Assembly (NCBI GenBank): GCA_903899015.1
Contig: CAIUHP010000081.1
Location: 1 to 64,000 of the forward strand
DNA: 64,000 nt
Source of the DNA: an uncultured Armatimonadota bacterium
GTDB taxonomy: Bacteria > Armatimonadota > Fimbriimonadia > Fimbriimonadales > Fimbriimonadaceae
Reading direction: 5' to 3'
In this document: in pieces, positions 34,453 to 46,089 of the stretch
Layout of the letters: each line of letters starts with the position of its first letter
How positions within the stretch are numbered: position 1 is the stretch's first letter
The notes under the pieces: model-generated
What the model was told of the DNA's origin: nothing
The model's database searches: none
What the model saw: the letters and a program-made list of their open reading frames with translations, nothing else
Translations under genes and position numbers: made by a program

Positions 34453-35787
34453 ATGCCTTACATTCCACATACTGATTCCGATCGCCGTGAGATGCTTGCC
34501 ACTATCGGCGCCCAATCGATTGATGAACTGTTTCGTGAGATTCCGGAAAAACTAAGAGTCGCTCCTGGTTCCCTCGATCTTCCTCCCGCACTTGACGAGC
34601 CTCGACTTATGGCTCATCTATGGGAACTCAGCAAGAAGAACGTCAACCTTGCCGACGTTACTTGCTTTTTGGGAGCGGGAGTTTATGACCGATATATTCC
34701 TGCCACCGTGGGTGCTGTCATTTCTCGCGGAGAATTCCTGACCTCTTATACTCCCTACCAACCAGAGGCATCCCAAGGTTATCTCCAAGCGATTTACGAA
34801 TTCCAAACGATGATTTCCGAAATCTATGGGATGGATCTGTCGAATGCGTCGATGTACGATGGGGCGACCTCGATGGCCGAGGCCGCGATTATGGCGACTG
34901 GAATCAAACATCGGGACAAAGTAGCAGTGAGCGAAGCGGTTCACCCTCACTACCGACAGGTACTCGATACTTACTGCTGGTCCATGGGCATCGAAGTCAT
35001 CACCCTTCCTGCCGTGGCAACCGGTGTCACCGATCTTTCAGCCGCTGCCGATGCGGCGTGCATCATCCTGCAATATCCCAACTTCTTCGGAACAATCGAA
35101 GACTTAGCGGCTCAGCGAGCGGCTTGCGATTCTAGCGAAGCGCTCATGATTGTCGTTGCCGATCCGGTAGCTTGCGCGTTGCTGAAACCGCCCGGAGCCT
35201 TCGGTGCTGATATCGTAGTCGGTGAAGGCCAGTCATTGGGTGTCGCCATGGGACTCGGCGGACCCATGGTGGGACTTTTCACATGCAAGAAATCCTTGAT
35301 TCGCCAGATCCCCGGACGTATTGTTGGCAAAACGAAGGAAGCTCACGGAGAGAAGCCGGGCTACGTGATGACGCTTCGAACTCGTGAACAAGATATTCGA
35401 CGTGAGAAAGCAACGTCTAATATCTGTACCAATGAAGCCCTGATGGCCCTCGCTGCAACCGTTCACATGATTGCTCTCGGCAAGAACGGTATGCGCGAAG
35501 TGGCGACCGCAAGTGTTCGAAACACACAATACGCCATTCAGCAACTGACCGCAGCAGGAGCGAAGCTGCATTACTCCGGCAGAGTGTTTGGCGAGTTCGT
35601 TCTTGAGCTTCCGAAGGATCCGACCGTCGTACGAGACGCCCTGCTTGAAAAGGGAATTCTTTGCGGACTACCCCTTGGTTCGTATTACGATGAACTCAAG
35701 AACTGTCTCCTGGTTGCCGTAACCGAACTTCGAACTAAGGATCAAATCGAGACATATGCTTCGGCTCTAAAGGAGGTGCTGGCATGA
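34453..35787 (+). CDS. gcvPA: Glycine dehydrogenase (decarboxylating) subunit 1
   Basis: N-terminal half of the split P protein. The ATG at 34453 gives MPYIPHTDSDRREMLATIGA, matching the family start; the longer frame from 34366 adds 29 unrelated residues. Typical sequence includes FLGAGVYDRYIPATVGAVISRGEFLTSYTPYQPE, YDGATSMAEA and CTNEALMALAATVHM. At 444 aa it is normal. It heterodimerises with GcvPB, with which it overlaps by four bases (ATGA), to decarboxylate glycine and load the H protein. Confidence 0.96.
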   Translation: MPYIPHTDSDRREMLATIGAQSIDELFREIPEKLRVAPGSLDLPPALDEPRLMAHLWELSKKNVNLADVTCFLGAGVYDRYIPATVGAVISRGEFLTSYTPYQPEASQGYLQAIYEFQTMISEIYGMDLSNASMYDGATSMAEAAIMATGIKHRDKVAVSEAVHPHYRQVLDTYCWSMGIEVITLPAVATGVTDLSAAADAACIILQYPNFFGTIEDLAAQRAACDSSEALMIVVADPVACALLKPPGAFGADIVVGEGQSLGVAMGLGGPMVGLFTCKKSLIRQIPGRIVGKTKEAHGEKPGYVMTLRTREQDIRREKATSNICTNEALMALAATVHMIALGKNGMREVATASVRNTQYAIQQLTAAGAKLHYSGRVFGEFVLELPKDPTVVRDALLEKGILCGLPLGSYYDELKNCLLVAVTELRTKDQIETYASALKEVLA

Positions 35788-44922: not shown

Positions 44923-45615
44923 ATGTCAGACACGATTCCGAGACTGATCCTTATTGACGGGTTGCCTGGCGCAGGTAAGAGCACCACCGGGGAACTTCTC
45001 TCAGCCGCAATATCCGCATCCGGTCAGCCATCGGAGTTGTATCTGGAAACTCAACCCAATCATCCGCTCCATGTTTTTCCTACCGATGAACTGGGCGCTG
45101 CTTGGACCAACATACATCTAAAAACGACGCCTGAGACGTTCGGCCAAAGAAGCTTAGAGCTTTGGGACACTTTCTTGGCCCAGAACACCGGGGTCGTTTC
45201 GATCATCGAGAGCTTTCCCTTTCAGAGTTCGATTCGGGTGCTGATGCAAATGAATCAGTCCTCAGAGCTGATCGAGAATTATTGGAACGAGTGGCAGCAC
45301 CGGGTCGCAAGATTAGATGCTGTCCTCCTTTTCTTTCATGAAACGGACCCGATTTCACTCATTGAACAGGCCTTCGAGGAACGGGGAGATCAGTGGACTA
45401 GCTACATCGTGCGGTCGTTTGAGTTGATGCCTTACTGCAAAACTCGAGGTTTGACCGGCAAAGAGGCGACGATTGGATTCCTGCGGGACTACGCAGAATT
45501 GCTGGATCACTTGATGTCAAACATTCAAATTCGAGCAGTCACGTTTGAAGCGAGACCCGAAAACTACGAAGAACGTCAAATGTTGGTTTATCAAGCTTTT
45601 GGACTCAATGCTTAG
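44923..45615 (+). CDS. P-loop kinase-like protein (230 aa)
   Basis: ATG 44923 gives MSDTIPRLILIDGLPGAGKST with Walker A at residues 13-21. The rest is helical with no obvious Walker B or lid signature. It could be a small-molecule kinase (an uncharacterised member of the thymidylate/adenylylsulfate kinase-like group) or a nucleotide-binding partner. Start is chosen because a frame from 44866 adds residues before the P-loop that no family member needs. A TATAAT box is 9 bases ahead. Confidence 0.75.
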   Translation: MSDTIPRLILIDGLPGAGKSTTGELLSAAISASGQPSELYLETQPNHPLHVFPTDELGAAWTNIHLKTTPETFGQRSLELWDTFLAQNTGVVSIIESFPFQSSIRVLMQMNQSSELIENYWNEWQHRVARLDAVLLFFHETDPISLIEQAFEERGDQWTSYIVRSFELMPYCKTRGLTGKEATIGFLRDYAELLDHLMSNIQIRAVTFEARPENYEERQMLVYQAFGLNA

Positions 45616-45717
45616 GTTCGAAGTAGCCATTCAGGGCGTTCGGGGCGATAGTCCCAGAAAAAGCAGATATTCGTAAAGACATCCTGCCCAACTGGCCTAA
45701 ACCGTGTTAAACTAACT

Positions 45718-45862
45718 CCAGCGGCTGCAAAGCCAGCGTCGAATTTCCCAAAAGGAAAACGGGGGAACCGTAACTTAGGGGTGAATGGAGATCAGTTTGA
45801 TCTACTAGGGTAACTCTTGGCCCGAACCCGACAGCTAACCCCGTAGACGTAGTGAGAGTCGG
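45718..45862 (+). ncRNA. Cyclic di-AMP riboswitch (ydaO/yuaA)
   Basis: The conserved core is unmistakable: CGAAT near 45740, GGGGGAACCG (45761-45770), TTAGGGGTGAAT (45776-45786), and CCCGAACCCGACAGCTAACC with CCGTAGACG (45821-45850). These correspond in order and spacing to known ydaO aptamers, which bind two c-di-AMP molecules. The inner P1 pairs AGCGTC (45735-45740) with GACGT (45846-45850). A TAAACT box at 45708-45713 puts the transcription start near 45720. The controlled gene would normally be a cell-wall or osmotic function, but here only a 37-codon ORF follows before a terminator. Confidence 0.92.
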
Positions 45863-45900
45863 ATGCGCGCGTACGACGCCGGTTCGCGCCGGAGGTGAAG

Positions 45901-46014
45901 ATGGGACAACGTTGTTCTGTTCAGAGCGCCATGACACTTGCCTTTGTGGTCCAGGGGACATATCGCGAATCAAACGTGATCTTTGGCTGCAATGGAGCAG
46001 CGCCAATCATGTGA
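45901..46014 (+). CDS. 37-codon ORF under the riboswitch
   Basis: A textbook ribosome site, GGAGGTGA at 45891-45898, precedes the ATG at 45901 by 5 bases. The 37-aa product (MGQRCSVQSAMTLAFVVQGT at its start) resembles no family and has only a short hydrophobic patch. It lies between the c-di-AMP riboswitch and the terminator at 46058, so the three form one transcript. It may be a genuine small protein, the remnant of a lost gene, or a regulatory ORF. Confidence 0.45.
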   Translation: MGQRCSVQSAMTLAFVVQGTYRESNVIFGCNGAAPIM

Positions 46015-46057
46015 AGAGGGCCCTTATGTCAGCCACGTCAGCACCTCCTGTTGAGCT

Positions 46058-46089
46058 GGGCCTTCCGAAAGGGGGGCCCTTTTCCTTTT
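46058..46089 (+). terminator. Rho-independent terminator after the riboswitch ORF
   Basis: GGGCCTTCC, loop GAAA, GGGGGGCCC (9 bp, two G-T pairs), then TTTTCCTTTT. An upstream GAGGGCCC at 46016-46023 could pair with the 5' arm and act as an antiterminator. Confidence 0.85.

Follow-up and report, generated by a model that had tools for sequence, protein, structure and literature searches.

Cyclic di-AMP (c-di-AMP) riboswitches are usually described as switches of adjoining genes, and a studied example is an OFF terminator switch, in which transcription ends on ligand binding (PMC6488665). Riboswitch-regulated noncoding RNAs have been reported for other ligands. Rli55 of Listeria and EutX of Enterococcus respond to B12 and act by sequestering the protein EutV, and the SAM-riboswitch sRNA SreA pairs with the prfA 5' UTR (PMC8383071). 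Anti-Shine-Dalgarno (anti-SD) loops, in turn, are the hallmark of the alpha-r14 or 'cuckoo' sRNAs of Rhizobiales, in which the motif is ultraconserved in unpaired loops as the stems vary, and whose member NfeR1 uses such loops to silence ntrB (PMC10746234). A search of the open literature returned no report that ties c-di-AMP riboswitches to trans-acting sRNAs or describes them in Armatimonadetes, which does not prove absence.

The locus described here combines features of these systems. As with Rli55, EutX and SreA, an aptamer controls or belongs to a noncoding RNA, here predicted from sequence to act in trans; unlike in those three, the aptamer is of the c-di-AMP type, with an anti-SD loop as the conserved element of the output. 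It shares the anti-SD motif with the alpha-r14 sRNAs, which differ in having three CCUCCUCCC loops, in lacking a riboswitch aptamer and in belonging to Alphaproteobacteria.

We analysed a 64,000-nt stretch of DNA from an uncultured member of the Fimbriimonadaceae (hereafter, the window). A first-pass annotation of its letters had proposed a strong ydaO/yuaA aptamer heading a self-contained unit of about 370 nt, and had singled out as odd that the usual ydaO-type gene is missing downstream. All of this was borne out. The aptamer is a full, high-scoring member of RF00379, exceeding the gathering score of 38 by a wide margin (90.4 bits) and covering model positions 1-134, the full length of the model (E-value of 6.9e-22 in a local search). 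The unit starts with this aptamer and closes with a terminator hairpin of -18.6 kcal/mol, followed by TTTTCCTT and a T-rich tail, and the corresponding loci of related genomes likewise lack a conserved gene. Unlike that of conventional RF00379 riboswitches, the output is not a coding gene. Sequence comparison gives good support to the view that the locus encodes a conserved, stand-alone noncoding RNA of ~370 nt with the aptamer at its start.

Table 1. Features of the aptamer-headed RNA locus, in window coordinates.
Feature	Position	Strand	Evidence
Probable -10 promoter element TAAACT, within GTGTTAAACTA	45708..45713	+	-10-like counts in class-B loci
c-di-AMP (ydaO/yuaA) riboswitch aptamer, RF00379	45727..45863	+	cmscan 90.4 bits, E 7e-20
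Structured noncoding RNA body, conserved multi-helix domain (spurious 37-codon ORF 45901-46014 inside)	45858..46034	+	11-relative alignment
Anti-Shine-Dalgarno hairpin CAGCA-[CCTCC]-TGTTG	46039..46053; loop 46044-46048	+	conserved box, stem counts
Conserved box CACCTCCTGTTGAG	46042-46055	+	
Intrinsic terminator GGGCCTTCC-GAAA-GGGGGGCCC-TTTTCCTTTT	46058..46089	+	hairpin 46058-46079, T-rich tail to 46089

RF00379 was found in 74 of 85 genomes of the family, and the wider order contributed another 10. Reading the DNA 3' of the family aptamer loci and of 18 order loci allowed us to define two main classes. Class A consists of aptamer, SD and ORF. In class B, no conserved ORF occurs in the 54-188 nt that separate the aptamer from a CCUCCU box, and a GC-rich hairpin resembling a terminator comes next. 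Excluding four matches judged to be chance, class B comprises 49 loci in 49 genomes, exactly one each, with 42 in the window's family and seven in a sister family of the same order (the former being the Fimbriimonadaceae, Armatimonadota). In an eighth sister-family genome the contig ends at the aptamer, and another contig holds an exact box complement. Throughout the 49 genomes, the succession of aptamer, covarying body, conserved box and terminator hairpin predicts a noncoding transcript with its own end. The ACCTCCT box was absent from 20 RF00379 loci of other classes of the phylum, and it is from these 20 that we take class B to be missing beyond the order. A pattern scan of GTDB for the box plus the start of the terminator returned matches in Arthrobacter/Pseudarthrobacter, which we took to be coincidence: no riboswitch was detected in the five records scanned (four Arthrobacter/Pseudarthrobacter and a Streptomyces), and in one Arthrobacter/Pseudarthrobacter match that was read, the stretch lay in frame within a protein with a SepH-like N-terminus.

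An alignment of 11 tails yielded a 41-pair structure that takes in the body, the hairpin of the box and the terminator; 19 of the pairs show changes on both sides. Paired alignment cells amounted to 91.4% (81.5% when shuffled), and covariation to 0.388, as compared to 0.213 for shuffles (0/500 reaching the observed value) and 0.08-0.14 with slid partners; because the structure itself came out of this alignment, the slide control favours it, and related sequences can exceed shuffles even without structure. The terminator helix (helix 10) itself covaries, four of its seven pairs being changed on both sides. Apart from RF00379, no known RNA family matched the tail at the Rfam gathering score (weak matches only); this covers Rfam families of the anti-SD sRNA kind, compared by covariance model, and no Rfam relationship between the class-B RNA and alpha-r14 was seen. 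In the window, GCGUCG of P1 could form a competing helix with CGACGC of the tail, an option that we considered and dropped, as P1 of G007 no longer matches.

The conserved box, a feature overlooked in the first-pass annotation, reads mostly GCACCUCCUG in class B, that is, the 16S anti-SD sequence. CCTCCT is present in 49/49 loci by class definition; among the flanking letters, of which the search pattern had fixed only a purine before and a non-T after, the preceding A recurred in 48/49, the preceding C in 43/49 and the following G in 42/49 loci. The 14-mer CACCTCCTGTTGAG occurs in one copy each in 18 of the 85 family genomes, and 16 of these copies lie 60-195 nt 3' of an aptamer on the same strand. 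The two copies without an upstream aptamer equal the chance expectation from base counts (~2), and the reversed pattern had 0 occurrences in the family genomes. In the consensus fold of the window's clade, CCUCC forms the loop of a 5-bp hairpin, CAGCA-[CCUCC]-UGUUG, whose stem is 98% paired in the alignment, with changes confined to one side. Across all 49 loci, a mean of 3.55 bp surrounded the CCUCC loop versus 0.66 bp at other positions, part of this excess reflecting shared descent and motif conservation.

Most likely, the output of the locus is the RNA itself, and we consider it probable, going by its sequence features, that this is a c-di-AMP-responsive small RNA that acts in trans by blocking ribosome binding sites with its anti-SD loop. 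Transcription from its own promoter would generate a ~370-nt RNA with the aptamer first, the intrinsic terminator last and no protein product. The CCUCC sequence, presented in a small hairpin loop just before the terminator, would pair with strong SD sequences (GGAGG/AGGAGGUG) and thereby block translation in trans, with c-di-AMP setting the amount of RNA made or exposed. We infer the SD pairing from the identity of the motif and the precedent of NfeR1.

Alternatively, rather than being an SD-pairing seed, the box could serve a stand-alone c-di-AMP-sensing RNA for internal switching or as a site for protein binding, in which case the CACCUCCU box would work through protein binding (like Rli55 and EutX with EutV) or ligand-gated structure. 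In single-sequence folds the box is often partly paired (mean unpaired probability of 0.44 for the tail alone). Predictions have it pairing mainly with the aptamer in ~10 loci and, in several folds of the sister family, with an upstream GUCAGG, and our searches gave no target with extended complementarity. However, the conserved core coincides exactly with the anti-SD sequence and, in the window's clade, lies within a hairpin loop, and pairing with the aptamer is predicted in a minority of loci only, which leaves this alternative unlikely, if worth bearing in mind.

The class-B loci also carry promoter-like elements. A -10-like TAnnnT lies 5-40 nt 5' of the aptamer in 46/49 loci, as opposed to 5/49 in a control zone, and TGnTA was found in 21/49 versus 2/49. 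GGAAC was present in the -35 zone (30-75 nt 5' of the aptamer) of 24/49 class-B loci, compared to 13/106 other riboswitch loci and 4/49 in the control zone, an enrichment that suggests a promoter type common to class-B loci.

Scanning for terminators revealed an extra one, ~60-70 nt past the aptamer and ahead of the RNA body, in 7/7 sister-family loci and in 0/42 loci of the window's family, with a scan that demands four T in a row and recovers the final terminator in only 19/49 loci (final ends that it missed were judged from the strong hairpin alone). In the sister family, this terminator would be the visible control point of the putative trans-acting RNA. By analogy to studied ydaO switches, which terminate on ligand, c-di-AMP would end transcription there, and the RNA would be expected when c-di-AMP is low. 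As no internal terminator was found in the window's family, whose loci are without an obvious expression platform, control would there probably be exerted by refolding or stability.

The genes around the RNA are not constant. Upstream, a divergent sucD was observed in 23 class-B loci. Beyond the terminator lies a co-directional hisB in ~13 loci, a convergent upp in G018 (of the window's genus), G020 and G022, and unrelated neighbours elsewhere. In the window this place is taken by a sulfotransferase gene (PF13469; 46179-47327). Given this variation downstream, the RNA is not a leader. With the ORF unconserved and the neighbours variable or convergent, no adjacent coding gene emerges as output; RF00379 loci usually have such a gene, though the Rfam model does not demand one. 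A P-loop kinase-like gene (weak AAA_18 match) occupies 44923-45615 on the upstream side of the RNA. Among the class-B loci read, this gene and the sulfotransferase flank the RNA in the window's genome only, and both are apparently insertions between sucD and upp.

These arrangements bear on a cis-acting reading, in which a c-di-AMP riboswitch would have an expression platform of unusual length and switch at the end terminator; read-through would then give expression of whatever gene follows, which is hisB with the his operon in many relatives and the sulfotransferase in the window. The co-directional hisB loci fit this reading, as does the action on a terminator of ydaO switches studied elsewhere. 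We nevertheless regard it as distinctly unlikely, since RNA and box remain conserved where upp occupies the opposite strand or the neighbours are unrelated, and the apparent control terminator of the sister family precedes an RNA body that keeps the box and its own final hairpin. Read-through to the sulfotransferase, one of the explanations offered in the first-pass annotation, is likewise at odds with the hisB or opposite-strand upp found in its place in relatives.

The same annotation had paired a 'perfect' ribosome site with a 37-codon ORF as a functional unit, raising the prospect of an unknown small protein as the target of c-di-AMP control. In the window, GGAGGTGA at 45891-45898 is indeed well spaced from the ATG at 45901, and the stop (46012-46014) precedes the terminator. 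Yet start codon, SD and frame are not conserved at homologous loci. In the seven closest relatives, the start codon reads ACG, ACG, AGG, ACG, ATG, GGG and GCG, and the 'SD' GGAGGGG, GGAGGCG, GGAGGTG, GGAAGAG, GGAAGAG, GGAGGTG and GGAGGAG; in-frame stops interrupt the frame in several relatives. The stretch between aptamer and box measures 54-56 nt in G017, G019 and G023, too short for the ORF to fit. A Pfam search with the ORF returned no match, and tblastn of the peptide against the 85 family genomes retrieved the same locus only (E < 0.05), most matches being fragmentary or stop-containing. The ORF, moreover, overlaps RNA structure with clear covariation. From its sequence, we consider it very unlikely to be a protein-coding gene, and a genuine small protein under c-di-AMP control is accordingly a highly improbable reading of the locus. 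The 'antiterminator-like' GAGGGCCC, placed at 46016, proved not to be conserved among relatives either. We also considered that the window's 'SD' might pair with CACCTCC, an idea dropped for lack of conservation of the GGAGGTG half. Loss of a host gene, suggested by the lack of a gene directly after the aptamer in the window's genome, is the least credible explanation, since 49 genomes of two families each keep one gene-less copy with covarying structure and conserved box, pointing to an old, maintained state rather than a product of decay.

If the RNA pairs with SD sequences, the rarity of strong ones in the genus could make the CCUCC seed selective: within genus loci, GGAGG stands ahead of only 15 out of 158 large ORFs (start sites being approximate), and the genome has only 17 occurrences of AGGAGGTG-N3-9-ATG, few of them before real genes. 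Two mRNAs are candidate targets, both of them leads drawn from sequence. One, from among these few, encodes a small lipoprotein (MTKKIFALVMVVSVLGAFLAGC..., 46-58 aa), with CAGGAGGTG, 9 nt perfectly complementary to the box, kept in G000, G007, G018, G020 and G022. The other is at window positions 35771-35786, where the SD AGGAGGTGCTGGC forms one of the strongest predicted duplexes with the box in the sample; its gene is probably gcvPB. Searches of 13 genomes with the full 16-nt box complement CTCAACAGGAGGTGCT, allowing up to two mismatches, gave matches not above the reversed control. In the sister family, nearly all exact box complements were the locus itself, and no target with extended complementarity was found. 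The small lipoprotein (G000:C75:49866-50021; relatives L348-L377) is conserved family-wide at ~42-58 aa, and its gene mostly carries a strong SD of the GGAGG type. Its GGAGGTG seems more frequent in genomes with the riboswitch RNA, in a comparison not controlled for phylogeny.

More tentatively, and with somewhat less confidence than we place in the small-RNA reading as such, a c-di-AMP-sensing sRNA may have been ancestral to Fimbriimonadaceae and the sister family, mimicking the 16S anti-SD and repressing a few mRNAs with strong SDs, such as that of the small envelope lipoprotein. Were this true, an ancestral anti-SD sRNA would link an osmotic and envelope second messenger to translation in trans, and c-di-AMP would reach unlinked genes through a stand-alone aptamer plus anti-SD RNA. 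Because the genus has a culturable type species, the claim is open to testing. For riboswitches without a following gene, a conserved RNA output should be looked for before they are labelled orphans.

Several minor observations emerged from the survey. Two loci (L041 in G016 and L042 in G009) have a similar RNA with hisB downstream, with AGCACTTTTCC replacing CCTCCT, so that the anti-SD box appears to have been lost or altered. The record JADZEW010000026.1 (L326), a public MAG titled Methanoregulaceae archaeon, seems identical to contig G056:C26 of a family member (both of length 320918), and its organism label looks wrong. Finally, the window's genome carries a second RF00379 copy of conventional design (G000:C43:136930-137064; L051), with an SD and a 94-aa ORF directly 3'; the encoded protein (MLTEYEVRCQMEII...) has no Pfam match, and related small proteins follow aptamers in several relatives.
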